Shown here: in pieces, positions 17,261 to 47,136 of the stretch
Position numbering within the stretch: position 1 is the first letter of the stretch
How the letters are laid out: each line of letters starts with the position of its first letter
Assembly (NCBI GenBank): GCA_032821775.1
Contig: JAVLRN010000002.1
Span: 186,001 to 250,000, forward strand
Origin: Sanguinoderma infundibulare
Taxonomy: Eukaryota; Basidiomycota; Agaricomycetes; Polyporales; Polyporaceae
DNA: 64,000 nt
Direction: 5' to 3'
The notes under the pieces: generated by a model
Told to the model about the DNA's origin: nothing
Database searches by the model: none
The model's input: the letters and a program-made list of their open reading frames with translations, nothing else
Position numbers and translations under genes: made by a program

Positions 17261-17695
17261 CGTCGTCCGTTGAGAGAGTGCTCGAGGGTGACCAAGCCGC
17301 CAGGGGAAAGTCAGACCGCGTTATGGCCGGAATGGAGCCAGAGCAAGGGGCACCGGAACGTCGGCAGTGTCACCGAACTCGTAACTGTGTCGCTCGGTCA
17401 CCTCGGGCGAGACAGTCAAGGAAGACGTTGATGACTCATCCGAGATTGGTCCGGGAAAGCGAGAAAGTTGATTCCGCTATTTGAACGCTGAGAATTGGGG
17501 GACCAGCATTGGAAGTGGAGGGCCCGGTCGGTGTTGTTCACCATTATCCCACATCGGAGCGTTAGGAGTTCCCCTTTCCTCGGACGCGGATGAAGCGCCG
17601 CCTGTTTCATCCATCGGGGAAATATCACAGGCGGAGTAGCATCCTAGCTGCTAGAAGAGAATGAGTACGACTAAGTCGAACTTGGATCACGGTAT
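17261..17695. other. Flank between F-box gene A and the KDZ transposon
   Basis: This contains the upstream region of F-box gene A and ends at the first base of the transposon terminal repeat. No gene is supported. Confidence 0.45.
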
Positions 17696-17716
17696 AGTAC
17701 AATTTCTCATAATGCA
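17696..17716 (+). repeat. Left terminal inverted repeat of the KDZ element
   Basis: Twenty-one bases identical to the reverse complement of 37650-37670. It is followed by scattered TATGCATTATCGG / TTATGCA motifs that also occur near the right end. Confidence 0.9.
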
Positions 17717-18300
17717 TACGTACGGTCGGTCCCCCTATTGTTGTATGCATTATCGGGTCTTATGCAACAAGAAATTGGTCACATTTCGTGACATGAGTGA
17801 CATCACGTTACAGTAGCAGAGCCGTGACCCACTTGTCCAATGTCGCCTGACGAACACCCATAGACTCCGAGACCATTCCATCACAATTGCTTATATTACC
17901 TATTACCCGGTTGTAACATATCCCCGGCTTTGCTAGGCAGCAGGCGCCGGCCGGGACCCACATCATAGCCACCTTTGCTACCGGGCCGGGCGCGCCGATG
18001 TGGCTGCATTTAGCGCCCCGGCCGGTCGGCGTCTATAGGTGGCTATGCTGACCGGCCGGTTATGAACGCAGATACCTCCCCAGTGGTCCTGTGTGCGATT
18101 CCTCATTCTAAAAACTCTGTTACATATGTAAAACAGAGGTATACTATTGTTGCTCTTGTTTTCAAGCTCTGTAGACAGTTAAATGACATCACAGTGTTTG
18201 CCAGCCGGCCGTGAGACATTATACCAGCGCTTGCTAGCCGGCCCGGTGGCTGCCCTCCAAGCTCTTGCCAGCCGGCCGGCGACATGGTTAAGTCTCAATT
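17717..18300. repeat. Left subterminal block with GCCGGCCGG palindromes
   Basis: CCGGCCGG-type palindromic motifs cluster at about 17946-18060 and 18200-18285. A stretch at 17901-17937 (ACCCGG, then GTAACAT, then TTGCTAGG) is matched in inverted orientation at 37119-37156 in the right arm. The arms are thus longer but degenerate inverted repeats, and the motifs are candidate transposase-binding sites. Confidence 0.65.
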
Positions 18301-18539
18301 GTACGACCGTCCACGAACCCCCACACGCTTCGGTTTGTCCACAACATATTAATACATGTGTATTATTTATTGTATGTCACATATCTCATACACAACACCA
18401 CCTGCGATTCTCCAAATCGATCTTATCAATACCCTACCTTGGGTACAGTGGTTGACGTAGATTGCGCGTGTGGGGTATTGACTCTTTCCGGAAGGTTTGC
18501 AGTGGGAGCACTTTGTATTTGGCACATTTCTATCTTGTT

Positions 18540-20720
18540 GACATCACTGATCACCCGGACGCAGCATAGATGTCAGTACTGGAGTCATGCACACGTGTCT
18601 CAACATCCTCAGGTCCCGCCCGTGACCCGCGGATTCATTTCTGCGCCAACAACCGTTCCATAGCAGCGGCCTGAGCCACCGCAAACTCCCGAAACCAAAG
18701 TATGGTCCATGGCAGCCATCCCGGCTGCCGTTCATTGGACATTGAAAGCCTGACTTTATGGCAGCTGTGACGTCGCTTTCCACTGACCCCAATCTCTCTC
18801 TCCAATCTCACCATCGCATCACAGGTCGCACAGCAGCATATCAAGTCTGCGGCAGCTGCGTTAGCTGCCGGCTGTTAGTTATCCAATCTGTCACTCACGG
18901 CATCTCTCTCCTGGCAGTGCTCTCGCGGTAGCTCTCTCCATGCAGCACTCTCCCAGTAGTACTATTGCGGAAGCTCTTCAGGTAGCTGCCGTCTACCGTG
19001 CATTGCTCTCGGCAGCTCTTCCCCGGTAGCTGCAGTCTACCGCAGGTCTCGACGGTAGCTCTCAACGGGAGCTAGGCTTGATCGGCAGCACTCTTGCGGC
19101 AGCTCTTCCCCCGTAGCTTCAGTCTACTGCAGGTCTCGACGGTAGCTTTAGACAATATTTCTCTCGCAGCAGCACTCTTGCGGCAGCTCTCTCCTGGTAG
19201 CTGTAGTCTACCGCAGATCTCGACGGTAGCTCTCGAGCGGCAGCCATTGTCCACCGCCCCCAATCTCTCTCTCCAATCTCATCATGGTACTATCCATGCC
19301 AGAATAGTATAAAAAGTGTGCAGCAGCTAAGGTAGTACTCTGGCTGCTCACCGCAGCCCATCGTTGCCTGCCGAACACGGCTATTCGCCTATCCCATCTG
19401 AGGCAATCCTCAGTGTAAATTCTCTCTTGCTCTATTCTCGCCTTCGCACGTCCACGCAAACCCCCGCGGGTCGTACTAGGCTTAGAGTGTAGAACCGGAA
19501 GTGTACAATGTAAGTCAACCTTCTAGTCAATGTGAACTGAGCCAATGCTGATTCAAATGTCTTAGATTCTCCAGGCACCGCTCTCGCGGTAGTGCTCTTG
19601 CGGCAGCCTTCTCCCAGGCAGCTGTGGTCTAGCTCGGGTCTCACCCCGGCAGCTCCCTTCCTTGGCGGCGTCCACGGCCTTCTTCATCCTCCGGCTGCTC
19701 ACCGCAGCCATCGTCCCCGTCCGAACACGGCTACTCGCCTAGCCCGCGGGAGGCTGTCCCGAGTGTAAGGGCCTCTAGCCCTCTTCTCGTTTTCGGACTT
19801 TGGCTCAACCTCCGCGGATCATACAAGGCTTAGGGCGTAGACCCTGAAGTGTACTGCGTGAGTCAACCTTCTAGTCAATGTGAATTTAGCCTATGCTCAA
19901 GCAGGACCATGTATGGGTAGGCCCGGGAGGCTTCCTCCATCGCCGCAGTAGTCGCGGTGCTGCTGGGGCACGCCCGCGCGATGTGGCCTACCTTGCCGCA
20001 GTGGTATGGCCTACCTTGCCACAGTGGATTAGTCGTCAGCTTGTGAGACTATGCAAGGTTAGTCTTGCAAGCTGAGGTCTAATTGCAGTCACACGGTCCC
20101 ACCCTACCACGGTGGCCACAGAAGATGTAAGTAGGTTTCTTCTCTGTTTTGGGACTACGCTCATTACTATTCTCATTCTAGCATTACCGGTACATAATTT
20201 ACGTATCGGGCATGACGCGCTCGACTTCCTCGGAAGGTGCCTTAGCTGCCGCTAGCGGGCTGCCGCAAAGACCTCGGGTGGACCGGAGCTACAGGGGACG
20301 GAGCTGCCGCAGGAGCAGTACTGCGAGAGCAGTGCCGGGAGAATTAATTGACTCAAGTATTACACTTCAGGGTCTACGCCGTGGGCCACGGCCATTCGTT
20401 GGCCGCTTTGACGACGATAATTACTGTGTAGTATCGCCGTTTTATTCATTCGTTGACCGCCGATGGCGGACACGATTTCGACCAGAGTGTTCTACTGCCG
20501 GTCCTTGAATATCCATAGATTCACTCTGCGGCAGCCGTCGCAGCCGGTGGTCAGTGGTTCGGCACCAACAACCGTTTTATAGCACTCAAGTGTGATGGCT
20601 GAACAGTAAGATGGGTCTACATTTTGATCAACTCGACGGCAGCCTTTCCAGCACGTGGTCAGTGCTTCGGCACCAACAACCGTTTTATAGCACTAACGTC
20701 TGAGGGCTGAACAATAACGC
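18540..20720. repeat. Left-arm noncoding region with nested direct and inverted repeats
   Basis: No gene is supported here. Visible structures are: (i) three tandem units of about 84 bp at about 19014-19245 built on GGCAGCTCT...GTAGCT...TCTCGACGGTAGC; (ii) a direct repeat of about 215 bp at about 19340-19560 and 19690-19900 (GGCTGCTCACCGCAGCC at the start, CTTCTAGTCAATGTGAA near the end); (iii) an inverted match of about 19545-19680 with 20240-20370; (iv) two adjacent units of about 100 bp at about 20550-20730 sharing CACCAACAACCGTTTTATAG, with a partial third at about 18643; and (v) a duplicated CCCAATCTCTCTCTCCAATC at about 18787 and 19259. The region is very rich in the pentamer TGCCG/CGGCA. 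Confidence 0.7.
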
Positions 20721-20795
20721 GGTGATACATTCTACTGGTTCGGGTGCTTGTTGTACATCGAAATCTTGGCGCACGGAAACAGCAAGTGCATCCGC

Positions 20796-21657
20796 CTACC
20801 GACTAAGCTCCATCTCCTCCTCAATGATGCGAACATCGAGTCTGTGCCATTCCTCCTCCTTCTCCTCAACGATACGACCAATACGCAAATACACCTCACC
20901 AGCGAGCGCGCGGAGGTCGTCCCTGTCAGACTCAAAAATAGGAATCAGGGCGCCCTGTTGCACGTCAGCACTGGTATCTTCTGAAATGGGATCGTGTCGA
21001 TGTACGACAGTTGAAGCAGGGTTAATCCACCACCCGGGAGTGCGGTGTCCCTGACCAGGCCCATCTTCTGCCCACGTCCACCACTGCGGATAGATCCATG
21101 AGTCCTCCATACCGAGGAAAACCTGCTCGTTGAATGTTGCGAGGCATTGATACGTTGCAAAGTTGATGTTGCCGACATCGATGTGAAGCCGACGGTTCTC
21201 CCAAACAGAGGCCCGAAGGAGATACGCGAGTGGTTTGCACCACACACGCTCGACAGTATTGTAGTCTGCCAGTGTCATCTCCATTGCGGCTGTGAGACCG
21301 ATCGCGCACATCGCCGTCCACTACAAATAAATCCGGAACCATTAGAGTGTATATCAACACCAAACCGAGGTGTTTCTTAGATTTAGTGCGTACCATCTCC
21401 CGACCGATTCCGTGGTTCCATCGACGTATCGTGAGGTCATTTGGAGGTTGCGGCATTGCTTGCAGCGCAGAGGAGATTCGGCGTGTAATGAGGAGCACTT
21501 CAAGACGTGCCATACCGCGTACGTTGAGGTACGGGGCACCAGCGGGATTCTGAGGTGCCGGTATCATGATGGCGGCTTTTGGGATAGCAAGCTTCGCTGC
21601 CGAAGGTACATAATGGTATTGTAGCCGTCCCGGCCCGGGCCAAGCGTCACATGGCAT
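20796..21657 (-). CDS. KDZ-element accessory protein, 262 aa, unknown function
   Basis: Two exons, 21394-21657 and 20796-21320, join in phase 0 across a GTACGC...TTTGTAG intron to 262 aa. I recognise no domain. The central part is rich in Trp and Tyr (for example YPQWWTWAEDGPGQ). The C-terminus is a charged helix (IVEEKEEEWHRLDVRIIEEE) that could form a coiled coil. It lies just downstream of the transposase gene on the same strand, inside the element, and carries the element's TGCCG pentamers more sparsely than its neighbours. It is intact and may be an accessory factor of the transposon. A structural search is the only route I see to a function. Confidence 0.65.
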
Positions 21658-21877
21658 TCAACAATGAGGCACCGACCATAGCACCTCGCTGCTGCACTCT
21701 GTCTCAGTCAAGGCTGCCCAAAATGATGCTAATTCCGCTATTACGATTGTAAGTGCCAGGATTTCATTGCAGGCAGCGTTTCTCGTCATATCCATGATTT
21801 ATGGCCGTCTGCGGCACCTTATTCATGCACTCAATATTCCAGTCAATGCTTCCGAAGACGGTCTAACATACTGCTTT

Positions 21878-24800
21878 CTATGGTACGTATTTACTCCGTG
21901 CACTAGAAAAGACTCCGACCGCATGGTCTTTGAGACTGCGCCACATTGAGACCTGCCGGTGAGCATACGCCAAGTGACCCGGCGTTTTAGCTGTTGTGCT
22001 CCATTTCTCCCAATCGGCAGCCTTCCGTTCGAATGTGCGAACTGTGCAGTCCATCTCAAACGGCACCAGGACAACCTCTTCATCCCATCGGGACTTACGA
22101 GCATATGCCCGAAGCCACAGCATGCGACGGTCTGTGGATTTGGTAAGTGCTTTGTAATGGTATATCGGTACCGCGATCGACTCACAGTCTCGCATCCACG
22201 TACTCTGCTCTCCAGACTCAGTGTCTGAGATGTTCCAGAACCAGGCCGAATGTTCGTTGTGAAGCCCAGGTGTAAAGGATTCCATGACCGCGGTTGTCGT
22301 CTTCAGATCTTCCTTCTTGATGTCTTTGTATGTTGTTCGGAAGCGTTCGAATGCTGTCGCATCCTCAGGGTCGTCAAGATAGAATAGCCGTCCCATCGCT
22401 GCTCGAGCTTGCTGATAGACCCGGACGTGCTTCCGGACTCCCTCGTCGGCAACGTGGACATCGTCGAAGCTGCGCAATTTCGCCCGGTATGATGATGCGT
22501 TACGGACCTTAGCGCGGTACAGTAGAGATTTGTACCCGATTCCAGTGCGTATTCCCTGTAGGGCGTCGTTGAGCTGACCTTCACGGAGCTGCCGCTCCTT
22601 CTTTGCCAGGTCCAGCATATCGTTCTGAGCAAGGAAGTCGATTCTGAACATGGACGGCAGACCAATTGGATGGGTTTCAGGACGATCTGCCGGCAGCTCT
22701 CGGATGGCCTCACCGACGACGTTATGCATATCCCATTCATCACCGAACATCGTGAGATCCGCACCGAGGACTCCGCCATCGCCCGGTAGGTGGCCCGGCA
22801 GATGCTTCCATCCCGTCTTGTGGAATGCGCTAATAGCGGAAGCGAGGCGCTGCCGTTTTTGCACGAGTGACAGCCTTGCCTGGGTGCCGGCACTGTCCTT
22901 GGTGCAACGAGCGGTGTGAGCAATTGCGAGTCTGAAACACTGTCATTAGTGTGCGTTTTCAGCACGCTTCAGAAACCTACTTTGTTTCCTCAATCATCAG
23001 CCCATGTGCAATCCAGTCCGCAGCTCCAAGAGTCTCATCGGACACCCCAGCATCGGTGAGCTCTTCCTGTGCAAGCATGACCTGCACCTCCTTCCTCGTC
23101 GGCACTATTGACAAAAATTCATTTCTCGTTCACAGTGTACCTCGAACTACTCACAAGGATTTGATGAGACAGCATAGATGTCCATCGCTGATGGGTCCCG
23201 CAATCGTTCGGCATCTGCGGCATCAGCCTCAGCCTTCCACTCGGTACATTTGGTGGCATCGGTAGCTGCCGCAAGGCTCTCGAATGCGGATACTGCAGGC
23301 TTCCATTGTTGGCATGCCCTTTTCCACTTCCGAGTGAGTAGTGCGGCTGATACGATGGTCAGTAAGCTGCCGAAAATTATGGGGTCATACGTAGCTTACT
23401 AATTCTGGTGACCTTCATCCAATTGGAGTCGTTCATGTGGTCGTCAATGACCTCCCGACGGTGTGCTGCCGACATTCCCCTGGTGCTATCTGCGATCGCA
23501 TTGACCTTGTTCCATAGTGTCTCCAATATCTCACCATCCTGGACACCGGCTCCAACGACAAAGTTGCACGAGAAGCGAGGGAAGCATTGTGGGATGTGCC
23601 CATGGACGTGAAACTGGCCGATATCGCGCAGGAATGTGAGGCCCTCGGGCATGTGAAGCGACGGGCTCTTCTCAAACCTGGCGTACAAATGAATGAAATA
23701 TTGGCACATAATGTCATAGAGGACGAGAATGCGGGTGAGGCCATTGAGATATGCGAGGACCCAGTTAAGTACGTAGTCCATGTTCCGCTGGCTATTGGCA
23801 GGTTAGTGTGGCTGTCGGAACGATTCCTGAATTCATAGATGCATACCGCTCGCCCTGTTGGAAGTCGACGGATGCGTGTGGGGCGAAAAAGCCATGCCTA
23901 GAACACGCTGCTGCGCCAATCCCGGTAGCTTCCAGCTTTGCGCGGTCGACGGTTGCATTCAGCACTGCACGGTGATCATTGCATGTTGACTTCTGAGTTG
24001 CCCAAGACAGTGCATCTCACTTAACGTCTAGGCGAGGCAGCCGATGCGACTACGTGACGCACCTCTTGGTATTCAGTTGCGGTTTTGAGGTGTTGCTTGT
24101 ACGGTGCATCAGTTACCATGAAGGCGTGTCCATCGGCAAAGGAAACGTCGTCCTCAGGATTTCGCATGTGCCGATGTTGCGTGCTGAAATTGCCATCGAG
24201 AACGACGGATCGGGTGTACTTCCATCTAATCAAATGAGGATCACAATCAGCCGAGAGGAGGAGTAGGTGACGTACTGTTCAGGATCATCTCGCCATGACT
24301 CAGGTAGGTTGACCTCTGGCTGGGGACATGCGGGACAATGCACTGCCAAATCGCCGGGTCCAATTGCCTGCTGCCGGTGAGCAAAACCCGCCAGCTTCCG
24401 CATCTGCTGGTTGCGCCATTGACGAGATACACGGAGCAGTTCCTTGTATCGATCCTAGCACTGTCTGTCAGCGTTTCAATCCATTATATGCAACGAGGGT
24501 CTGGGCAACACACCGGCACCATATGGGGAAAGGCAGCATTGGTTGTCCGACGAAGCTTGTTGTAGTAGTTTCGTGCCGAAGTCTTGCATTCCTTGTTTGC
24601 GAGCAAGAAATCGTCGAGAACGCGAGTCGTGAAGACTGTCTTTGGCTGAGTGATAGAGGCGGGATAGTAGCCGAGATCGAGTAGCTGAAAGTCCTGGCGT
24701 TCGGCAGCTGCGCAAGCACAGAAGGTGAACGGCAACTCATGAACTCCGTCCGTGTCAACAACGACGATCATCCGGTCATTGCTGTAGAATGCAGAGGCAG

Positions 24801-25732
24801 CAGGCGAGGTGCTCGGCGCAGGACGGCGAGGGCCTTCACCGACCCACGGTAGGTCAGACACCTCAGGCAACAGAGTGTCACCAGAACCCAGGTAGAAGTC
24901 GCTGTCTTCATCTTCCATCTCAGAGTCAGGCTCCTCCTCCAGGTACGGCAGCTCATCGTCTTCATTCCCATCTTCATCGTCGGTAGCTACGGATTCGGCA
25001 AGGGGGAGGAAGGGAAACGGTGTGGGTGGTTGCCTGGCGGGATCTAGGGACGGCAGATCATTGACAATGGAAGGAACTCGCGGCTGCTGCTCTTCGGCAG
25101 TGTCGTATGCACCTAACGCGGGGCACCACGCACCGCGGTGGCCACAGTGTACTTGGAGTCCGAGCTGCCGTAGCCATGCTGGTCTATAAAATGTGCCGCC
25201 CCAAAATTCGACGCGGTGAAGGGGATGAGACTGGTGAGCGTCACGGCAGCAGCTGCTGCAGAAGGTCGGTGTCGCATGGCATGTCAGACACCTCCAGAGG
25301 GCTTGATGACCACATGTTCCAACTCCCCCGGGCGGCTGAGCCTCGAGCATGAGCTGCCGGTCGATGTATTCATCTTGGACGATGAGGTACTTGCGCTGGA
25401 AATCGTTTTGCGACTGGACGTCCCGGCGATGTCAATGCTTAGCGTATTATTTCATAAAAGTATTTCCTTACCTTCCCTTTGCGCTGAGGACGTATGTGCG
25501 ATTCCAGTGTTATTTCGCTGTAGTCATCGATAGCTGCCGGGGGCGGGGCTTCGGCAGCCTCTTGCGGTGTACGGCGGGAAGTCGATGTCGACGGCTCACG
25601 CATGGCTTCGGGCGCGGTGAAATGTACTTTTGATTTCTTTGTAACAATCTGAACTCCCCGTTTCGTCTTTCGAGTACCCGCCGTGATCTCGTCAAAGCCA
25701 GTAGGTGCATTTAAGAATCGTCGTCTAGCCAT
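21878..25732 (-). CDS. KDZ transposase with CxC2 zinc-cluster N-terminus
   Basis: This should catalyse excision and integration of the element through an RNase H-fold DDE-type core. Nine exons join in phase to 1134 aa with no stop: 25472-25732, 24520-25413, 24276-24454, 24063-24225, 23847-23992, 23400-23791, 23155-23346, 22981-23104 and 21878-22931. The N-terminal CxC2-like cluster spans residues about 121-150 (CGH..LWRCLTC, FCSSCCRDAH). The core contains VVLDGNF (Asp455), a CPACPQP knuckle, GERQRNMDYVLNW, LVLYDIMCQY (Asp574), HVHGH (609-613) and VQDGEILETLW (Asp633, Glu635, Glu638). The C-terminal part has WLRAYARKSRWDEE, a hallmark of the family. I chose the ATG at 25732 because the TET/JBP gene ends at 25803. 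The gene looks functional. Confidence 0.9.
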
Positions 25733-25802
25733 CACAGTATCATAGACAGTGGCGCGCGCAGGGGGATGGGGAGCGACAAATGTTTGATGCCGTGTTGGTA
25801 CT

Positions 25803-27572
25803 CTACTCCTCCATGTCATTGCCGTCTGTTTCGCCATCCGCATCCTCCTCTTCCTCCGTCAGATCTGACTCCTCTTCCTCCGTCAGATCAGACTCCTCGT
25901 CCATCGGCTCATCGCGTTCCGCACCGGCACCTCCATCCCCTCTCCCATCGGCTGCCGGTGCCACGGGAGCCGGCGGTTTGATTTCCCTGCCCTTTCCCTT
26001 ATCAATGGGTGCCGGGAGGTCCTGCTGATCTGCCGCGTGTGGTCCAGCTCCGCTCGGCACGTCATCCACAATGTCTGCGTTCTCTGAACAGGAGGTGAAT
26101 CATGTGGACCGGCTCAGCCAACGAAGGACTCACCGGATGTGGCTAGCTGCGTTGTGCCGACCATCGGCACCTTGAACCACTCGTACACAGCCTTGTTCAT
26201 GTACAACGCGTATGCAATGCGATCCTTCGGCACATTCGGAACGCCGTGAATGAGAAGCCTCGAGGTTGGCAAAACCACGGAGCCGGAACCGTACGGGAGC
26301 GAGATGCCGAGATTATGAATCTCAAAGATACCTGTCTCACCGTAGCTGCCGAGCGTGAGCAGCAGGTCGAGCCAACCTGGCATCGCACTGGTGTCGCGGT
26401 GGCGGAGAGTCGAGCGATTCACAATGATCTGCACAGATGTGAAAGTCGTGGGCCAGGTGGCCATGAGGGAAGCGCAAGATGCGTGTCTCATGACACACCG
26501 CTCCATCAGGTCTTGGCTGACCTCATATAGTTCTGGATGAGCTACCGCGAGGATCCCGTCCAGGATACCGCCAGACTCCTCAAAGTCCAGCATCCAGTCG
26601 GAAGCTCGGGCTGACCGCACGTCCATGCTAGGTGCCGGATCAAAGCGTTGACCCTGTCGTGGAGATCAGTAGGTGCCGGAAATGAATTTCGGCTGCCGGT
26701 CGTACCGTGTGCCCTTGCTGAAACCCCGCTGGATAGAGTAGAACCGTCCCCGAGTCCCATTCGGCCCCTTTTGAGAAAAAGGTGTCCGCCGTGCGCCATC
26801 CTTTCGTGATCGGCTGGTTGGCTTCCGCCGTCTTGATTGTCAGCTGAGCCTCAAGGATCCGCGTCGTCTTTAATATCTTTTGCTGTTTCCGATGATCAGC
26901 ACCCCCGGTGCAGCTGCCGCAATGTAATACATACCTGCCGATTCTCGGAGAGAACGTTCGGGAGCGACCAGGCAAGAACTCGACCATTCTTATCTGTAAA
27001 GACGGCTGGGTCGACGACCAACGGAAGGTTCCAGTCGCATCGGGCATGGAACTCCTCGACGCCGATGAGTGGTTCATACTTCTGCATCAGACAATTCTCC
27101 ACCTCCAGGTCAGGAATGACCTTTTGGGAGACCTCATGGGCGTACGCCGTTGCATCCCAATTCACGGAATCTGGAAGAAATCAGTGTGAACAGTGCTATC
27201 GGAATGAATCAGATACATACATTGATTGGAGCGGGCTTTGGACAGCGTGAAGGCGATGGTTCGGCAGTCGTCCACCGCAACTCGATCCAGGTGATCAGGG
27301 GGCAAGGGCCATTGCGAAATGAGCTGCTGGTGGGGCGTTATGTTATCACCGTGCTTCGTGAAATACTGTTCGAGGTTGACTATAAACTGTGCAGTCGCTG
27401 CGCGGCGTTGGAATTGGGCAGATGGGGTGTGGAGTACGTTGTCCATGACAGGAGACCGTGCAAACAGCTGCGAAAATGCGCACTTGGGGCGAAGTTGGAT
27501 ATTCAGAGGATCCCAATAGCCGAAAACATGATTTGATTGATCGCTTAAGAAAGCTGTGCACCCGGCCAGCAT
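25803..27572 (-). CDS. TET/JBP-family 2-oxoglutarate/Fe(II) dioxygenase (KDZ-linked)
   Basis: TET/JBP enzymes oxidise 5-methylpyrimidines in nucleic acids, giving for example 5-hydroxymethylcytosine. Five exons (27221-27572, 26935-27170, 26706-26876, 26134-26653, 25803-26083) join in phase to 519 aa without lesions. The double-stranded beta-helix core lies in exon 4. TLRHRDTSAMPGW supplies the iron ligands His338 and Asp340. SRLLIHGVP supplies His389. DRIAYALYM supplies Arg398, which should hold 2-oxoglutarate. The C-terminal tail (residues about 430-519) is acidic, with a doubled ESDLTEEEE motif. The gene lies 70 bp upstream of the transposase start on the same strand, so its 3' end adjoins the transposase promoter. 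Linkage of TET/JBP to KDZ elements is known in basidiomycetes. I predict an active enzyme. Confidence 0.9.
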
Positions 27573-27924
27573 TATCCACTTACCAAATACAGTTACTTAG
27601 TTGCACGGAACAGCGCGACATTTATTAGCCTACCCCCTCGATCCGACGAAAGCTAGACCAGCAGAGCACCTTTCCCGCCGTTCCCTTACGCCCAGCTTCA
27701 TTTCTCTGCCACCACCGTATGTCTTGCTTGTCTCCCCCTGTGTCGGCACCCAGCGCAACCGCTCTGACCTCCGCTATTTGACTCAAAGACAGGCGGCACG
27801 CACCCTCCACAGTATCCTACGAGCCGTTATTCAGTGGCACGTCTGTACGTCCATTCCATATTGATTATGTTGTCTTCCGGCTAGTATTCTCTCTGACCTC
27901 CTAATCCAGCTGTAACTTTTGCCA
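27573..27924. promoter_or_regulatory. Divergent promoter region inside the KDZ element
   Basis: This is the 352-bp gap between the TET/JBP gene (minus) and the HMG-like gene (plus). It should contain both promoters. I did not identify individual elements. Confidence 0.4.
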
Positions 27925-29517
27925 ATGCCTCCGCGCCCTAGCGATCTGTCCAATGCGGATGAGACGTATCTCAACTCGCACCTCATCGACTATCGCAACA
28001 CAGCAGCGGCCGGGAAGGAAGCTCTCCGCGAGGAGTGTGCCAAGGTCATCATCGAGAGCTGCAATCTAGACTCCACCAACGTCTACATTGTCGACCTCTT
28101 TGTTGCCGTATGTCCATTTTTTCCTGGAGTACGCTCACAAATTGCTGATTCCGCAGAGCAGAAGGTGCGAAATTGGTTCCAAAACAACGCCGACACTCGC
28201 AAGCGCGTTCGCCTTCCACTCCGCATCAACCAATCCTTTCATCCTCAGCGCGTCTTCAGCATGAAGAACGCAGACCTCATTCGACAGACACTGGGCGAGG
28301 AACAATCGAGCGGCGATCCCGACGATCGTGCATACATTGTCGCCTGGAACGCGACCTGCCGAAACCTGTGGCTTCAGCTCTCAGCAGAGGATCAGTTGGT
28401 CTATTACAGGTTGGCCGAGCTTTGGAGTCAGCAGGGTCCAGACAAGGATCTGAAGCCAATGTACGTTCACAGTTGCCCATGCGTGCCGCCAGCCTGACCC
28501 TCCCGGTACATTTACCAGGATGGCTGAGAGGAGGGCACCATCGTGGATGCGTGCCGTCACAAGCCTCTTTTTAGAACAGTGCAACATGCCGATCTTCATC
28601 TACGGCATGTTCGAGGATACGAATGGCAAGATGCGTGCTGCCGTATAAGTCTATCGATGTCCTGGCAGCTTGCAATACAAACTGACATACGGATTCCGAT
28701 AGCTACGACACGTCCCAGCTCTGGAATCAGTCTGACAGCAGTTCGCTGCTGTTTCGGAACGTGCCGGGATGGGACAAAGACTTTCGCCGGCAGGCATGGA
28801 CGTTCTTTCAAGCAGCACTCCGTCCCGACCTTGCTGAGCCCGATACGCTCGAGTTCGTCAAAGGAATCAAGCGCGTTCGTGCAGCCCCCTTTCAGTTCGC
28901 GTTATATGCAGACGGCACTCCTATCCTGGTGAACGAGGAGAACGGCAACGGCGTTCTGAACAGCCGTCGGCAGGACATATTCCGGGAATACTTCAAGCAA
29001 CACTACAGTACGTGCTCGACATGCCCTTCCCCGCCATGTATTGTCTCACCGACACAATGCAGGTCACGCGACTGGGCGGGAGGTGTGCTCAGCGCCATGG
29101 CAGTCGTTGGAGCAGCATCCTGTGTCCTTCTTCGAGCCTGGTATGCTGCCGGAAGGGTTCAGCTTTCAAGAACCAAGCAAACTGAACGAGCTGGAGCTTC
29201 TCGCGTTCTTCAACCATGTCATCCGAATGGAAGCTCCCGATCGTTTTGACCTGGACACCCCTCCCCGCCGCTTCCGCTTCAGTCACTACGAGTCCGGCCC
29301 CCGCACCCATCGCATCTACATCCCTGCCGTGTATGCCGGCAGCTTCGAAGCCGCTTCGGAAACTCGGCGCACGAAAAAAGCGGTTCGTGTTCCCGACTTC
29401 GAGACCGGTCCCCCTGCCGCCAGCGACAACACTCGATCAAACACTCCCGGAAGCCCGTCGAACGCTCCCGGCAGCCCTGCGCCATCTCAGCCAACCGTGC
29501 CGGATGTCGGATCATGA
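27925..29517 (+). CDS. Divergent HMG-like protein of the KDZ element
   Basis: Proposed exons are 27925-28107, 28159-28460, 28519-28642, about 28692-29008 and about 29063-29517. After a KVRNWFQNN segment (about residue 63), a helical region (SMKNADLIRQTL, then RNLWLQLSAEDQLVYYRLAE) has the spacing of a divergent HMG box, a domain known from KDZ accessory proteins. The segment with IFIYGMFEDTNG, NVPGWDKDF and PFQFALYADGTPIL is of unknown function. Two anomalies suggest decay. The exon 3 to exon 4 junction cannot be joined by GT-AG splicing without losing one base of phase. The stop TGA (29515-29517) is followed in the same frame by the ORF at 29536. It may bind DNA as a cofactor of transposition. 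Confidence 0.65.
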
Positions 29518-29535
29518 GTCCAGCGTGCCCTCTCC

Positions 29536-30900
29536 ATGGATATCGAAAAGGTCCGGGCTGCGCTTCAGGCAGAGAGAGCAAGCTCTTCTCCGGCACCCCC
29601 TCCAACGCCCGGACCATCACGGCCGCGTCGGCAGATGAAGGCCTCCAGACGGGACAACAGCGGACCCCGGCCGTGGCTCGCTTCCGAAGTTGATGTGGAT
29701 GCTGCCATGACCGAGAATGCCGAAGAAAGTGACGACGACGGTGACCCTTCATTTGTTCCGAATGCCGCAGACGAGCCGGAGGTGTCCGATGACGAGGTGG
29801 AAGATTGGTTGCTGGAGGGTGCAGACGATATGGTGAGCGATGGTGAGAGCGTCGGGGACATCCTACCTGCCTCTCTCCCTGTCGAGCAACTGATACCAAT
29901 TGCTCGTGCCCCCACTGTCTCTCGGATTTCAGCTCCTGCTCCTGATCATTTCGGATCACCGGTGAGCACACTCCCTACAATCGGCACCGCAACCGCTGCT
30001 GATGTCGGCTCTCTCGGAAACCATACCTCTCCCGTTCATCCATCCATTCCCTCATCCAATCCACAGCGCGTTCAAGCTCCCGCTGTGTCGGCTTCCGCTG
30101 AGACCGACTCTGTGGCTGGTTATGCAGGTCGTGCAGCCAATCCCGAACCATTCAACGCCCCAGAGGCTCAAAGTGACAGCTTCGACGCTGCGACCACGGA
30201 CGCAAGAGGCAACACATGTCCGGAACAGCCGCAAACCCTTCCACTGCTCACACCAACGGCCATAGGCTACGATGCGTATGCGCGCCACCAATTTCTTGTT
30301 GGGCTGTCCGATGAACAGGACTATCAAGGTATGATCATGCGGATGGGTGACAAGGTACGGTTGGTATCGCTGCATGGTACACAGTCTCACTGACATACAT
30401 CTCAGCTCCAGCAGCTCTGTGGTATTCCCGCGAGAGCTCCCGTGCTCTGGGGAACCTGGGCGTTCAAGGGCGCACATGTGCCGGCTACCGTGCAGGCATC
30501 TGCGAAGACCGTCGAGACCCTCTTGAACTGGATCAAGAGAGGCGTTGAGGCCGCCGCTGGACCGGCAGACACACAACGCTACTGCCTCGTCCTGGGCATC
30601 GTGCTGCGTGATTTGTCGCTTCTCGCAGAGGCTCAGAAATCCAACACGCAGACGACTCGCCTGCCGGACTACATGGCGAACTCGAACCTGGTGGTTGGAC
30701 ATCGGGCGATCGTGTTGCAGGCTTGTTCTGACGCCTTGGAGTCGGCTACGCATTCGGCAGATGTTGCGCGCGATTCGCCAGTGTTGAAGGGGAAGGGAAA
30801 ACAGGTAGCGGCACCTCCGCCGGCTGCCGAGAGCACTTTGGCAGCCGCAGGAGGTGCCACCAGGCGGCGCTCGACGCGGAAGAAGAAAACGGCTACGTAG
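29536..30900 (+). CDS. Acidic/Pro-rich ORF, in-frame continuation of the HMG-like gene
   Basis: Two exons, 29536-30354 and 30406-30900, join in phase 0 to 437 aa. The N-terminal half is disordered, Ser/Pro-rich, then strongly acidic (ESDDDGD at about residue 61, then DEVEDWLLEG). The second exon is helical (LLNWIKRGVEAAAG). The end is basic (RRRSTRKKKTAT), a likely nuclear signal. It is separated from the preceding ORF by 18 bp and lies in the same frame with only one TGA between them. I therefore suspect that both were one protein of about 890 residues. If it is an independent gene, it begins with the ATG at 29536 and lacks room for a promoter. Confidence 0.6.
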
Positions 30901-31065
30901 AACTCTCGTCCCCCTCCGTTAATTTTCCAACCACATTTCCTCGTATTCAGCATCTCGTTCAGATATGTACATGTAGAAATTCGCTAAGGCATTGATTCCA
31001 GAGACATTCACGACCACTCCATATGTAACGTACATTGTACACAGCGCTTTCGTTTTATGCATCCT

Positions 31066-32439
31066 CTACTTTCCTCCGGCAGCTCGAGCTCGCGTTCCTC
31101 TAGCAACAGGTCTGGGTGAAGAAGGAGAGGCAGCTATGCCGAGATCTGGCGGCTGCTCACCAGCGGGAGGAGCTGCTTGCGATGATGATCCGCCACCATC
31201 GTCATCCTCACGCTCTCCTCCACGGCGTGCGATCACCTGGATATTGAAGGACTGGGGCCCAACACTGATGCTGCCGCCTGTGGGGGCATCGCCAGTACCA
31301 GTGGTCAGAGCCACCGCGAGTCCGCGCAGGAGGTCGTCTGAGAGACCGCGTTCTGTGAGGTATGTCGAGACAGCGAGCTTCATGTCGTCCTCGTTACGCT
31401 GGGGAAGTCCACGCTCCAAAGTGTCGACACGTTCTGACAAGTCTTTGACCGCGCTGAAAAGTTCACCAACCATTGCGTCCCGCAGTCCAGGAACCTCAGC
31501 CTCTCTACCTTGAGCAACCGGCACGTCCTCCATCGCGAGCTCTGCGACCTCTGCCTCTGCCTCCTCGGCTGTGCGAAAAGCTTCCGGCACCTTGCTCTCC
31601 ACTCGTTCGAGCTGCCGCACGACCTCCGCCTCTGCCTCCTCTCCGATGCGCGAGGCATCCGGCACCTCTGTCTCCACTCCCTCGAGCTGCCGCACACGGC
31701 TGTCGAGCAGCGCGATGCTGCCGGCGAGATGCTGGCCAAGATTGCACACCATCGGCGCGCATGTGGGGGCGGCCATGTTCGCAAACGTTGCCAACTCGTC
31801 CTCGTTGCGGTCCACCTGGACCTGCACACGGCATAACCGCTCCCGGACAGGACGGAAGTCTTCCTCAAACATATGCATGCGCTCCAATGCTGTTGCGTAT
31901 AGGGTTCGAAGGTCCTGGACGAGCTGCAGCATGTCCCGCATCGCGATCCAGTTCAACGGAACTGGCGGGATACTCGAGAATGCTGCCGAGAAACGAGCAA
32001 AGATGTCGCGAAGTGCCGCAATGGACTCCAGGGCATTGACGAGATGGTCACCGAGAAGGTCGCTGTATCGAACCAAGCCATGATAAGCGTCCCAGCCGTC
32101 TTCCGATGCAAGGGCAGTGCTGTGAATCTCGTTCCGAGTGTTGGTAACAATGCTGGCCTCTCGTCGCAACATGACGGCGTCGCACGTGAGAGCGGTACCC
32201 AGTGAGACAATTTCATCGAATTTAGCTTTTGTCGCTTCGATCATCTGCGCGAGGGGATCCGTGAATCGGAACGCCTGGAAATCAGTCGCATCCGACCCGT
32301 CCGGCAGGTCAGCTGGATGGATTCGAAGGCTGTCCAGGATCTCGAAACCATCGCGATCGATGCGAGGCACGATCGGTGCCGCGTTTGTGGTTCCGTCTGC
32401 ATGCGGCGGGTCGGCCACTCGATACAGTCCACGATACAT
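31066..32439 (-). CDS. Coiled-coil protein of the KDZ element
   Basis: The open frame runs 31066-32523, and its first ATG is at 32439 (MYRGLYRVADPPHADG), giving about 457 aa. The sequence is mostly helical with heptad-like Leu/Val spacing. Two near-repeats, RQLEGVETEVPDASRIGEEA and RQLERVESKVPEAFRTAEEA, occupy the middle. The tail is Gly/Ser/Pro-rich. No catalytic domain was recognised. The frame starts without an ATG immediately after the zinc-cluster ORF on the same strand, so the two may be exons of a single protein. A phase-compatible intron could run from about 32660 to 32535, but I cannot confirm it. Confidence 0.55.
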   Translation of the reverse strand: MYRGLYRVADPPHADGTTNAAPIVPRIDRDGFEILDSLRIHPADLPDGSDATDFQAFRFTDPLAQMIEATKAKFDEIVSLGTALTCDAVMLRREASIVTNTRNEIHSTALASEDGWDAYHGLVRYSDLLGDHLVNALESIAALRDIFARFSAAFSSIPPVPLNWIAMRDMLQLVQDLRTLYATALERMHMFEEDFRPVRERLCRVQVQVDRNEDELATFANMAAPTCAPMVCNLGQHLAGSIALLDSRVRQLEGVETEVPDASRIGEEAEAEVVRQLERVESKVPEAFRTAEEAEAEVAELAMEDVPVAQGREAEVPGLRDAMVGELFSAVKDLSERVDTLERGLPQRNEDDMKLAVSTYLTERGLSDDLLRGLAVALTTGTGDAPTGGSISVGPQSFNIQVIARRGGEREDDDGGGSSSQAAPPAGEQPPDLGIAASPSSPRPVARGTRARAAGGK

Positions 32440-32519
32440 GTCCTTCGTCACCCGCGGCAGATCCTTCCATGATCCTGTGCAGCGCAAGATCAGCAAGCTG
32501 CCAACGGATATATGTGCAA

Positions 32520-34753
32520 TCAAATTGCACCTTTGATGCTACTGACAGTCCACTCGGTCCGAGTGGCAGGTCCAGAGCTCCAGTGCCTGAGTGGGAGAGC
32601 AGGAGGGGCACGCTGAAGCGTTGTAGAAAATGCGGCCTCGTCCACCTTGGTCGGGAGTACCACGATTGGCACGGATGCACGCGATCTTCTCGACCGTCCG
32701 GAACGCGAGTTTGAGGTCTGTGCCGCTCCTCGAAGAGCTGCACGAGACGTACGTGATGTCCCAGTCGTCCCGGAATCTGCCGCAAGTCGGAGCTCGTCGT
32801 CTGCATCCTTCCGGTCGACCGACATGTGACCTGCCGACGATGGCGATGTGCGGCGGGATACTGTTGTTGGAGAAGCTGGAGGCGGCTCTGCAGAAACACG
32901 AGAGGAGCCGGGAAGAGTAGTCGAATCGCGTGATTGTGCCCGTGACAGAGAACAAGATGCCCGAGCGACTGAACCCCTCCTTGCCCGACTACCGTGACCA
33001 CGTCCCGGCTCATCAGCAGACTGTTCAGCATCATCATGAGCATCACCGGCAGCCTCGGGTCGAGTGGCTCCGCGAAGAGCACTGGCTTTCGCCTCTTTCG
33101 TCCGAGGAATCGCGCGCCACTGCTTCGAAAACCACTCGTATGTTTCCTGGGCAGGAAACATTTTCGGGAGCTTTGTAGGGGAGAAATTTGGAGTTTCATA
33201 GAGGTCAGGAGAGGAACGCATGCGCCAGACGGCAAACCCAAGATAAATCGTGAGAGGAACCTCAATCTTGACGTTGAACGCGAGCGAACAGCCGTGCTTT
33301 GCGGATAGGCATCTCTTGCAAGCGGAAGACATCAACAGCATAACAAGACACGGCTCGTCCCTTCCCCGGCACCGCTCGCATGGACGCGGCTGATAATATA
33401 TCAGTCAAAAACACATGGTAGAAGACAAATACACGTACGTGCGGTACCCATCGGAATTCAATTTGCTCCGGCGCAATATCGTACAAGGTCCGAAGACCCT
33501 TGCTTCGCTGCCCCGATCGCGGCACGATGGCACCTGCGGAATTCTCCTCCGTGAGCTCATTCGGGGTCTTCGCTACCTTTCCGGAAGGCTTGCTGGAGGT
33601 GCCGGCACTGGACTGAGCCTTTCCGGCAGGTCTTGGGCGCGGCTTCGTGGATGATGGACGCACGGTAGCGGTGGAGCATGGAGTAGAGGTACCGGCACCT
33701 CTGGATCGAGAGACGGACCGCAAGCGAGGCCCGGCAGAGCTGTCCGTTGGTGGGTTCCGATTCACAGCCTTTGCGGGCTGGCGGCCGCGATGTCCCGACT
33801 TCTTCTTCGAGGTACCGACGGCCTCCGGCTCGTCATCCACATCGATTTTGCTCTCCCCATCTGAGTCCGGTTCTGCGGCCGTCTGGCGAGATGACGAGCG
33901 CAACATGCGCCCGCTAGCGGTGATGCCGGAAGTGTCCCAATCGAGGACGGCCGTCGATGCATCAACACGACGTGCTGATGTCAGTTTCGAGGTGCCGGTG
34001 TCGTGATCACCGCCATCGACGGCCATCTCGTCGTCGTCGGCGGCACCACTGCCAATTGTGTCTGAAATAGAATGTAAGTAGTGAATCACTGCAGTGCCGA
34101 AGCCATGACCCGTACCCTGTTTCCCTATCGTCCCGCTGGTGGCTGGTCGTGCATGGCGGGATGTTTTTGTATTCTGCGTTTCTGCGGCAGCCAGGCGGGA
34201 GCGTTCCGCATTCTTCACAGCTTTAATCGGGAGCGACAGATGCGGCTCATTCAGCACTAAATGTAGCATAGAAATTAGCGAGAGTAGGATCAATGCAGTC
34301 TGACCGCTACGTACCGCGTCGATGCTGATCCCACCAAACGTTATACAGCTGATCCTCGGGAATGGTCCCGTACAGATCGCCCTCCTCGCCGGCGGGCTCC
34401 CATTTAAGGCGGCCGAGTACTCCCTTCTTGTACGCCTTATGCCCAGGGCCAGCGAACGTAATCGTTTCCGGATCGAATGTCGTCTCTCCTGCACGCTGCC
34501 GAAGATTGTTGGCCCAAATACATCCAGCAGCGAATGGTGGAATATGTGGAAAATCTGCGACTGCGAGAGCCTGGAGGAAGGCAGCAAAGTCCGACAGGAA
34601 ATGGACATGCCAAGAACGCCGTTTGCGGTGGTTGACAGGGGGACGGCACCGGAAGGCATATTCGAGGCGGCTTGCATATTCGCGCATGGTTTGGATCTGT
34701 TGTTTGTTCGGGGGCGGCAGCTGTTTGTTCGTTGTTGCATCTGCTTCAGCCAT
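32520..34753 (-). CDS. Zinc-cluster protein of the KDZ element
   Basis: Exons 34315-34753, 34116-34256, 33439-34061 and 32520-33389 join in phase to 690 aa. The N-terminal domain (residues about 1-146) is globular, with HVHFLSDFAAFLQAL and YNVWWDQHRR. A basic, Ser/Pro-rich linker with acidic DDDEMAVDGGD follows. Residues about 404-440 carry two paired cysteine knuckles, CERCRGRDEPC and CKRCLSAKHGC, which should bind zinc and resemble basidiomycete C2-C-C2-C proteins often found near transposons. The rest is disordered and Ser-rich. Its role is unknown; DNA or transposase binding is an inference from the zinc cluster and location. The downstream coiled-coil frame could be its true C-terminus. 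Confidence 0.65.
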
Positions 34754-35247
34754 TGTGATAGTAAGCTCGTTGATACGAAAAAAGTGAAAGCTGCCAGAGG
34801 ATGAAGGCAGTTGATCGCGATCAGATCAGCGGCAAAACGCGAGTGGAAAGGTTGTGGCACACTAGCGCCCATCGATTCTGTCCCGGTACCTTCATCACAA
34901 CTCTCGCAGGTCCCGGAGGCATATGGCACCAAGGAAAGGAATGTATATCGAGAGCTGCCAATGTCTATCAGTTGCTGAAACTATTTACAGGATCATCACG
35001 GCGAGGGGGGGCTAGGGGCAGAGAGTCCAGGCAGGGGACCTCAAAAAACCCTACGGCAGGTGCGTAATGATCGTCAATTTGCCCATATTGAAGTAAAACA
35101 TTTACATTGAGCCCTTTCGGATAGGTCATATTGAACAGGTAGCTCAATCACAAACATTTCCGGCACCCGTCTTGCGGAACCGCAGCATCTCCCGTGCCCC
35201 AAGCGAAGGTGCGCTAACGGTTTTAATTTGCGAAATCAAATGTACTC
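34754..35247. promoter_or_regulatory. Divergent promoter region between two KDZ accessory genes
   Basis: This gap of about 490 bp separates the zinc-cluster gene (minus) from the acidic-repeat gene (plus). No separate gene was seen. Confidence 0.4.
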
Positions 35248-36668
35248 ATGCGACTGGAAATTAATACAGGATTGAAACAAGTTCGTATCAGGTCTCCGAC
35301 TCCACCTCAAACACCTCCATCTTTGGCCGGCATAATTGGTGAAGCATCTCCGGAACATAGCAAGCAGCTTCCGCCGCAAGAACACGATCCAACGACAGGA
35401 TTTCTGGACTGCCAACGAGACATCTCACCCACATCGGCACCACCGTCGCAGTCCTCATTGTCATTTGATCCATCTTCACCACTCTCCGGAGAGCCGGTGG
35501 TGCCCTTTCCATTATCCCCTTCCACTGGCGGCAGCGAAATCGACCTGCCGATGACGGGCACCCATAGCAGGGACGAGCTGCCATCGTCCCCTTCCACCGT
35601 CGGCATGGACGTTGCCCTGCCGATGACCGGCGAGCTCAGCGAGGATGAGCTGCCGGCGTCCTCTTCCCCTGTCGATGCTACGTTCGACCTGCTGATGACC
35701 GGCGAGCTCAGCGAGGATGAGCTGCCGGCGTCCTCTTCCCCTGTCGATGCTACGTTCGACCTGCCGATAACCGGCGAGCTCAGCGAGGACGAGCCGCCGT
35801 TGTCCCCTTACCCCGTGGATGCTACGTTCGACCTGCCGATAACCGGCGAGCTCAGCGAGGACGAGCCGCCGTCGTCCCCTTCGCCCGTTGATGCTACGTT
35901 CGACCTGCCGATAACGGGAGAGCTCAGCGAGGACGAGCCGCCGTCGTCCCCTTCGCCCGTTGATGCTACGTTCGACCTGCCGATAATGGGAGAGCTCAGC
36001 GAGGACCAGCTGATGTGGTCAGATGACCAGACAGACGGTGCGCTTGTCGTCCAAGAATCCCAAATCACAATCACGAGTGAGTGGACTTTGGATCTACTTG
36101 GCCAATTGACATTTAATTGCAATTGTGTTGAATAGGGCCGCTGGCAGAGTCGGTGTTTCCGGAGATGATCTACGGTCTGTTCACCAATCGTGGATTCGAA
36201 TCGGCAGCTCCTCCAATGTCCCCCATTCAATCGCCGTCTCAGACCGACACATCCCGGAGATCCCAAAGCAAAGAGGCTAGGGGGCCTGCCGAAGTGATGA
36301 ACGATCCGATCAACATGCACGGTCTCTTTGCCACTCGCCCATTTGATCCGGCAGCTCGCCCTGTGCCCGCTATCGAATCTACAGGCCAGGGTAACATGTC
36401 CCTGGGACCCCCAAGCGAAGAGGCTAAGGAGCCTGCCGTGGTGACGCATGACCCCCAAGCTGGGGTACATTCTCGCTTATCCCGCATGCGTGCTGATCGA
36501 GAAATACTTGCAGCTACTATAGAAGGGCTGACGGAGGCTGAATTGATCGCTCGCCAGTTGCACGGCACCGCTTTCACCAGCGGTCCACAATATTGGCGAG
36601 CATACCAAGATTCACTGACCCAGCGAGTCACGGCAGTGGATACAGTATGGGAGAGTCTACAGGAGTGA
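35248..36668 (+). CDS. Acidic tandem-repeat protein of the KDZ element
   Basis: Exons 35248-36076 and 36136-36668 join in phase to 453 aa. Residues about 90-260 consist of six 24-residue units with the core (T)GELSEDE(L/P)P and VDATFDL. The DNA period is 72 bp (35550-36010), and the central copies are nearly identical. The units are acidic and Ser/Pro-rich, like a disordered interaction or activation region. The C-terminal third is helical (ILAATIEGLTEAELIARQL). No known domain was found. It is the right-most gene of the element and points toward the right end. Copy number of the repeat is likely to vary between element copies. Confidence 0.65.
35550..36010 (+). repeat. 72-bp in-frame tandem repeat
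   Basis: Six units of 72 bp encode the 24-residue acidic repeat. Units at about 35690-35990 differ at only a few bases, which suggests recent expansion or homogenisation. Confidence 0.8.
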
Positions 36669-37649
36669 TTTTGGGCATTATGTTTCGTTGTAATTGTATC
36701 TCGCCATTGCATATTGAAATTCGATGATATTGTCAGTTGGGGAAGAGATTGGGGGATGTGCCAGTGCTCATAATGCAAGGTACTCACAATACTTGGTACC
36801 AAGGCTTAGTAGTCAGCCGGAAACTGAAAGGAATTGCTTCACTACACCGGCCGAGGATCAGCTGTAATAAGCCTTACCCACCGGCCGAGATACTTCTGCC
36901 CTGTAGATGCTTTCCGGCCGGTGACTTCACCCAGTACACCTAGACCGCGTAAATTCGAACTTGTTGTACATTTTTGTGAATACCGCTATAGAGGGCATGT
37001 ATTTACAACAATTGGACAGTCAGGATACATGAGCATGACAATCTGTGGTTAACTGGGGCACGCGACCGGCCGGCCTGCCTAACCCTATGATACGCGGTAT
37101 TCTGGCCGGGCCCGATTCCCTAGCAACCCCAGGGTTATGTTACCGCCGGGTAACTGGTAAGTCCTATATATAGTGGTGTAACTATGTGAGACTCCTGCTT
37201 CCGCAAATACCCTCGGAACCTCCGGACCTCTGCCTGGAGCCTCGACCCTCCCACTGTCTCTCCCAGAGCAGCATGCGACGGAAGCAGAGGTTTTCGGAGC
37301 ATCCTGAGTAGGGACTCGAGTCGGCTGAGTGCGGTTGTAAGGCTCTGGTCGTGCTTCACGAGCCTTTTGAATGTGTGTCGGGCCAAGGACAGGCCTCGGT
37401 TCAGCTGGCATGATAGGGGATGGCTGAGAAACTCATCACACAAGCATTCAAATCACCGTCTGTTGAGTAAATTATCCCTCGAGGCATGAATCAGGGCCGC
37501 CACATTCCTATAAATGGCAGATCCCGTAGTGCATACTGGCCAAAACCTTATGCATTATGCATTAGTAGATTTCATGCATAAGTTCCCGCGTACGGAGTCC
37601 GTCCCCGCCAACAGTTATGCATTATCGGCACTTATGCATTATGAGCGCT
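36669..37649. repeat. Right subterminal arm of the KDZ element
   Basis: No gene is supported. CCGGCCG motifs occur at about 36846, 36881, 36913 and 37066-37115. The inverted counterpart of the left-arm ACCCGG...TTGCTAGG stretch is at 37119-37156. TTATGCATTATGCAT motifs crowd 37549-37645. These mirror features of the left arm. Confidence 0.6.
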
Positions 37650-37670
37650 TGCATTATGAGAAATTGTACT
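37650..37670 (-). repeat. Right terminal inverted repeat of the KDZ element
   Basis: It is the perfect 21-base reverse complement of 17696-17716 and ends in GTACT at 37670. Confidence 0.9.
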
Positions 37671-38039
37671 GTAGTAGTTTTCGTCGGGAGCAGGCCGTTG
37701 TTTGTACCTGTTAGGACCCCGCTGGCTTTGACGCCCGTCCATTTCTCAGTCAAGCCCACGGTTGTTGCTCGTTTATCCGATCTCCGGTCACGTATCTCCT
37801 TGGTCCTCCTAACATTCACTCTCTACGGGAAGTCCTTTCCACCACATGCACCACGTCACTGCCATTACTGACAGGTGCATTCGCATTTTCAGGATATGTG
37901 GAATAACGTAGATGATGGCCTTCTAAACATGTCACCACTACCATGTGGATTCCGAGTTGGATAAGTATTGTACAATATTTGTGGTCTTCTCGCAACAGTG
38001 ATTGAGATATTTGCCTGCGCTACAGCGAGCTACGCATTC
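37671..38039. other. Right flank of the KDZ element
   Basis: Spacer between the transposon end and the 3' end of the first YCII-domain gene. No gene was seen. Confidence 0.4.
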
Positions 38040-47095: not shown

Positions 47096-47136
47096 AACAC
47101 ATGCTGCAAGCTAATGCGTAGATCGATATCACTTCA

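Follow-up and report, generated by a model that had tools for sequence, protein, structure and literature searches.

A TET-bearing Kyakuja-type KDZ transposon inserted in a small inverted-repeat element of Sanguinoderma infundibulare, and CpG hypermutation among its copies

The locus described here raises the question of which transposon a conspicuous inverted repeat belongs to. In the window, by which we mean the whole stretch of 64,000 nucleotides from Sanguinoderma infundibulare that was analysed, genes for a KDZ transposase and a TET/JBP dioxygenase lie between the two arms of a 21-bp inverted repeat, and the first-pass annotation took the whole for a single KDZ transposon of about 20 kb, with ends at 17696 and 37670 and an expected 8-bp target duplication. 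These ends were compared with those of other copies in the host genome assembly (48.9 Mb in 87 contigs, whose labels are given here as C2, C10, C17 and so on), and since the genome searches score the best candidates only, the counts of matches and copies are lower bounds.

The scan of the host genome with the Tet_JBP profile returned at least 29 places, four of which (C17, C9, C2:4004074 and C7) match the window at 98.3-98.7% over about 3.4 kb. The results showed that in all four copies agreement with the window begins at 17869, with none upstream, and extends on the right to 37188, with 99% identity across the last 529 bases, and that their flanks are unrelated to those of the window. A perfect 7-bp target duplication is present at all five copies (AGACTCC in the window; CGCTCAG, AGCCCAT, GGCGTTC and GAAGCGG at the others). 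The features that define the KDZ element proper are:

17869..37188, minus strand (that of the transposase): Kyakuja-type KDZ transposon, 19,320 bp (comparison of copies, both ends)
17862..17868, no strand: target duplication AGACTCC, left copy (perfect match to the right copy)
37189..37195, no strand: target duplication AGACTCC, right copy (perfect match to the left copy)

Placing the KDZ ends at 17696 and 37670 has in its favor the perfect 21-bp repeat that stands at both outer ends, but it is refuted by the four other copies, which lack 17693-17868 and 37189-37673 and so end elsewhere, an outcome that the first-pass annotation had itself named as decisive against it; moreover, no 8-bp duplication was found at those ends, and the same repeat bounds small elements elsewhere in the genome, so that we give this placement next to no probability. 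The C17 and C2 copies measure 19,294 bp each in comparison to 19,320 bp for the window copy. The C7 copy (C7:586397-611074) has about 24.7 kb between its end matches, which is about 5.4 kb longer than the other KDZ copies and therefore probably reflects another insertion inside it; a 27-aa piece of accessory gene 3 (listed below) was located at C7:589048, within this longer copy. The termini of the KDZ element read GAGACC..TATGTG, and a terminal inverted repeat is absent, with only 12 of the 24 outermost positions matching.

The visible inverted repeat (17693-17716 and 37650-37673; 24 nt, 96% complementary, with 21 perfect bases within) was then compared with the rest of the host genome, where its left end has 18 matches and its right end 21, the window itself and partial matches included. 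Among the 12 other places that were read, 11 show both ends, 495-3126 bp apart (nine of 495-499 bp, one of 683 bp at C10:97643, one of 3126 bp on C5), and one shows the right end only. The right end reads ..GTACTGTA at all 12 places, and TACAGTAC opens 10 of the 11 readable left ends, the remaining one beginning AACAGTAC. Because the same terminus bounds these other places and none of the 11 two-ended ones is KDZ-sized, the repeat belongs to a family of small elements, whose two parts in the window are:

17693..17868, no strand: left part of the small host element (terminal inverted repeat 17693-17716), up to and including the first copy of the target duplication (family comparison)
37196..37673, no strand: right part of the small host element (terminal inverted repeat 37650-37673) (family comparison)

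When the KDZ element and one copy of the duplication are removed, the joined flanks form 654 bases, of which 567 of 650 aligned bases agree with the uninterrupted C10 element, indicating that the KDZ element is nested in the small one. The uninterrupted 683-bp copy at C10:97643 is thus a relative of the empty site, and given its 87% identity and its GAACTCC at the position of AGACTCC in the window, it is not the exact empty site. Of the earlier claim, the repeat and the KDZ transposon were both real, while the pairing of the two was not, the repeat being that of a small element.

The outer element is a non-autonomous inverted-repeat element of about 650 bp, unrelated to the KDZ element, for which the searches found neither a transposase nor an empty site of its own. 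The dinucleotide TA adjoins each of the 12 right ends and 10 of the 11 left ends that were read, all of them at element-bearing sites. With TA beside CAGT..ACTG at almost every end, the element may resemble MITEs of the Tc1/mariner type. One copy, at C4:1591777, is flanked on both sides by the 7-bp direct repeat CTGTCAG; the other two-ended copies show no such repeat, only TA beside their ends.

It could also be proposed that the outer element and the KDZ element are now mobile jointly as a composite, as both outer ends have been kept in the window, with the left terminal repeat differing from the family terminus by a C>T change. However, the outer ends are absent from all four other KDZ copies, and a genome search with just the left flank outside the element found it nowhere else, which makes joint mobility very improbable. 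In general, the analysis strongly favors a 19,320-bp TET+ Kyakuja-type KDZ transposon that was inserted with a 7-bp duplication into an inverted-repeat element of about 650 bp now spanning 17693-37673. To the left of the insertion lies a gene for a Cys/Met-metabolism PLP enzyme (4538-6616) and to the right lie two YCII-domain genes (38040-38527 and 46816-47608); for one host gene of the window the nearest match is from Ganoderma leucocontextum (70%), which places the host among polypores close to Ganoderma.

The genes carried by the element were modelled with a simple purpose-built gene finder, so that exon borders and gene models are to be taken as approximate. They are listed below in the order of the forward strand.

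20796..21567, minus strand: weak gene model of 207 aa, longest ORF without a Pfam match (gene finder)
21764..25904, minus strand: KDZ transposase gene, PF18758 positions 1-217 of 217 plus CxC2, exon borders approximate (Pfam)
26114..27572, minus strand: TET/JBP dioxygenase gene (PF12851), 434-aa model in 4 exons, homologue of CcTet (Pfam, PDB search)
27925..30787, plus strand: accessory gene 1 (the HMG-like protein of the first-pass annotation), 780-aa model, end approximate (gene finder, homologues)
31069..33404, minus strand: accessory gene 2, coiled-coil ORF with an upstream cysteine-rich exon, exon borders uncertain (gene finder)
33557..34753, minus strand: accessory gene 3, conserved N-terminal domain of about 145 aa (family alignment)
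35227..36665, plus strand: accessory gene 4, acidic protein, its 72-bp repeats differing from copy to copy (ORF, copy comparison)

The gene content proposed earlier was borne out: Pfam matches to CxC2, KDZ and Tet_JBP on the minus strand identify the transposase and the TET/JBP gene, further open genes lie within the element, and the correctly framed window exons that were tested contain no premature stop. The KDZ domain (PF18758) is covered from 1 to 217 of 217 positions in a hand-joined model (E 1.2e-47), and positions 98-217 are covered in a single exon (E 1e-27). The TET model aligns over its residues 166-418 with CcTet of Coprinopsis cinerea (E 2e-19), whose structures (PDB 7vpn, 7w5p, 8jkk) are the closest solved ones; HRD (the HxD iron-binding motif) and Asp337 are common to both, whereas the window protein has Ala at the position of Gly331 of CcTet, and oxidation of 5-methylcytosine is predicted for it. 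The acidic gene 4 differs between the window and the C17 copy by whole units of its 72-bp repeat. Another length difference between these two copies, of 46 bp, lies at 19983, within the non-coding left part of the element (18904-20731), which is marked by CAGCT-rich blocks and by imperfect tandem repeats of 84 and 108 bp.

By its KDZ domain, its 7-bp duplication and its lack of a terminal inverted repeat, the sequence 17869-37188 can be assigned to the TET+ Kyakuja-type KDZ transposons, and it belongs to a kind already in print, the TET+ Kyakuja of Agaricomycetes. The text of Kojima 2025 (PMC12730594), as far as consulted, describes for Kyakuja a 7-bp target duplication and no terminal inverted repeat, and places TET+ Kyakuja in Polyporales among other orders. 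The window element resembles the TET+ Kyakuja of these passages in combining a KDZ transposase with an AG-type TET/JBP gene, in its 7-bp duplications and in its lack of a terminal inverted repeat, and differs from them in having 5' GA rather than CA, in being nested and in its accessory array. It is likewise distinguished from Zisupton and Dileera, which have 8-bp target duplications, by a duplication of exactly 7 bp at five of five copies. The same passages report CA..TG termini for two Laccaria Kyakuja families, in comparison to GA..TG in the window, and we treat CA..TG as a family-level feature that does not define all Kyakuja. They also give Gly or Ser at position 331 for AG-type TET/JBP proteins, along with the residue numbering and roles used here, and by that rule, as worded there, the Ala of the window TET falls outside.

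The accessory genes were suggested at first pass to form a cargo set and gene order that might be undescribed, and the question is whether they are more than a one-off. A protein search of the genome placed accessory gene 1 beside TET and KDZ genes at 16 loci, that is at 16 of the 29 Tet_JBP places, and gave no gene 1 match at the remaining 13; KDZ matches in the host genome number 87, several of them being exon fragments of one gene. Five of the 16 loci belong to the window family, and one near relative lies on C8; a second family supplies seven and a third family three. Gene 3 was found at 15 of them, gene 2 at 13 and gene 4 at 6, and as far as the genes were found their order and orientation are unchanged. 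Identity to the window proteins drops to 24-44% in the second and third families, suggesting that the array is old, and the recurrence of the accessory genes beside TET and KDZ in such diverged families shows that they are not chance cargo. The set is therefore not a one-off, most of it recurring in the diverged KDZ families of this genome. Our search of listings and passages on Kyakuja, KDZ and Ganoderma, whose scope left aside the original KDZ paper (doi 10.1073/pnas.1321818111) and the supplements of PMC12730594, found no description of the element or the array, and the searched main text of PMC12730594 does not mention the array (the words HMG, zinc finger and accessory are absent from it).

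As regards the proteins themselves, accessory protein 1 has a weak GTF2I-like Pfam match, below the cut-off, which also appears in one of six family members, and its relatives are hypothetical proteins of Ganoderma leucocontextum (51-54% identical) and G. sinense (40-44%), compared at the protein level. KDZ and CxC2 domains are listed for G. leucocontextum in passages of PMC8955403. Alignments of accessory proteins 1 and 3, searched against PDB and Pfam, yielded no firm match, and for a 632-aa coiled-coil model, the upstream exons of which are uncertain, no relatives were found among the 8000 candidates sharing most words, which is a weak negative.

The following features were found near both ends of the KDZ element:

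17903..17937, plus strand: subterminal inverted repeat, left arm, 35 bp, 83% (BLAST E 0.03)
37119..37153, minus strand: subterminal inverted repeat, right arm (BLAST E 0.03)
17947..18279, no strand: left CCGGCC/GGCCGG cluster (motif count)
36847..37109, no strand: right CCGGCC/GGCCGG cluster (motif count)

The 35-bp pair sits 34-35 bp inside each end, and 19 of the 25 CCGGCC/GGCCGG matches of the element fall in two terminal stretches (531 and 408 bp).

To describe how the copies have diverged, the three full copies (window, C17 and C2) were compared at every site. They differ at 442 sites, only 3 of which are transversions; 420 are polarised C>T/G>A changes, of which 366 (87%) lie at CpG in comparison to a background of 27.6%, and 19 look like T>C/A>G changes; of these, 18 stand in TpG and are best read as one CpG hit in two copies. 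At the TET locus, all five copies (10 pairs) show 508 transitions (456 at CpG) and no transversions. For other TET families, the transitions (with those at CpG) and transversions were 1119 (979) and 152 in 21 pairs, 487 (388) and 18 in 3 pairs, 109 (61) and 34 in one pair, and 3090 (1916) and 967 in a set of 45 pairs, many of them old. Two KDZ families served as TET-less, meaning no Tet_JBP match within 100 kb for three of the four copies of one (C8:232624, C13:164292, C6:2338248 and C4:946921, the last having a weak Tet_JBP match about 20 kb off) and for both copies of the other (C7:794675 and C4:1252780), PE-type TETs being possibly beyond the reach of the model; the first gave 88 transitions (85 at CpG) and no transversions in 6 pairs, and the second 86 (71) and 1 in one pair. 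Four close pairs of retroelements, six distant pairs (65-69% identical) being excluded, showed 313 transitions (136 at CpG) and 33 transversions and were less CpG-specific, and 36 pairs of the small inverted-repeat element showed 332 (160) and 336.

Within coding sites the CpG hits fell almost as expected of neutral change, with rates of 0.12 for nonsynonymous, 0.14 for synonymous and 0.08 for stop changes; one misframed transposase piece contributed 3 to the 107 nonsynonymous counts and 1 to the 3 stop counts. Correctly framed pieces contain no stop in the window copy, three in the C17 copy and one in the C2 copy, and genome searches added TGA stops in two accessory genes, namely gene 1 (C9 and C7 copies) and gene 2 (C7 and C17 copies). 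Four DNA_methylase matches, on C5, C6 and C12, were found in the host genome.

Another explanation is that the C>T differences are base-calling errors at methylated CpGs rather than mutations. Methylation-linked C/T miscalls are known for some sequencing platforms, and the assembly, with 48.9 Mb in 87 contigs, looks long-read based. However, the only gaps between the window and the C17 copy are the 46 bp and the 72-bp units, none of 31 pairs (the window family and a second TET family) has a gap column over about 3.4 kb, which does not look like an assembly rich in errors, and the stops within matches to the retroelement integrase (rve), 32 TGA, 8 TAG and 1 TAA, are as expected from CGA>TGA. 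A RIP-like process is moreover reported in Ganoderma: passages of PMC4457147 describe, for G. sinense, 5-methylcytosine almost wholly at CpG and mostly in repeats, and C>T changes at CpG in repeats of at least 400 bp. Base-calling error is thus regarded as unlikely, and the differences are read as CpG>TpG hypermutation. CpG-biased patterns are also reported in passages on Rhizoctonia solani AG8 (PMC4014442) and Tricholoma matsutake (PMC6980582), while in the text of PMC12730594, as far as consulted, hypermutation is stated as undetected in Agaricomycotina, contrary to the copies here. In comparison to what those passages give for G. sinense, the present case is resolved copy by copy in a TET+ element, and its ends are less hit.

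The TET as a shield of the whole element against CpG mutation was considered and rejected, the bodies of the copies being hypermutated; and because KDZ elements without a detected TET are equally hit, the TET gives the element body no protection.

The ends were less hit than the rest. In the three full copies, 6 of 330 terminal CpGs were hit in comparison to 413 of 9252 elsewhere (p=0.019); the sparing is a post hoc finding on small numbers. With all five copies counted, 3 of 420 CpG strand-copies were hit within 238 bp of the left end and 400 bp of the right end, in comparison to 50 of 1230 in the stretch that lies 520-2000 bp inside the right end (p=3e-4). The two copies outside the first look gave 1 of 168 in comparison to 19 of 492 (p=0.035), or to 52 of 1124 at their own TET locus (p=0.010). 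By context, in the three copies, terminal CCGG sites were hit at 0.7% (1/150) in comparison to 4.1% in the interior, terminal CCG/CGG sites at 3.8% (3/78), the same as in the interior, and other terminal CpGs at 2.0% (2/102) in comparison to 3.9%, giving 6 hits observed against 13.6 expected over all contexts (p=0.018). Since CCGG is low and CCG/CGG is as in the interior, the sparing lies mainly in CCGG sites.

The spared end CpGs may be an edge effect of a RIP-like process or reflect bound host factors, with no role for TET. Effects fading at repeat borders are plausible for homology-based processes, and the interiors of KDZ families without a detected TET are hypermutated likewise; on the other hand, no clear gradient is seen, as the outermost right 100 bp, with 2 hits on 7 CpGs, exceed the next 200 bp, small as these numbers are. 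We give this explanation about an even chance. A more speculative proposal, which we consider doubtful, is that the element steers its TET and accessory proteins to its own ends, so that the CCGGCC clusters and subterminal repeats would stay unmethylated while the body is methylated and mutated. In the mechanism that we envisage, the KDZ transposase with its CxC2 cluster would recognise the subterminal repeats and CCGGCC clusters and move the element, the TET would oxidise 5-methylcytosine on element DNA and so relieve silencing, the accessory proteins may help the TET as DNA- or chromatin-binding factors, and the host would methylate and mutate CpGs in the body of each copy. The role of the TET is more likely to lie in expression or at the transposase-binding ends than in guarding the element as a whole against mutation.

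The correction of the boundaries illustrates that, without the other copies, the visible inverted repeat would have been given to the wrong transposon. The element is otherwise ordinary in kind, and the terminal sparing is its most interesting part. With five young TET+ Kyakuja copies, three of them read fully, it becomes possible to test a published idea, namely that the TETs of transposons work against C>T mutation; relevant to it is that CpGs of the body are hit as they are in KDZ elements with no TET detected, whereas those of the ends are hit less. As the uncharacterised accessory genes are part of a conserved array, their role in transposition becomes a concrete question, and both these conserved helper genes and the end-sparing pattern of mutation are worth testing. 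If the ends were indeed targeted, the sparing of their CpGs would be the trace left in the mutation pattern by a demethylation system that the transposon itself encodes and directs to its ends.
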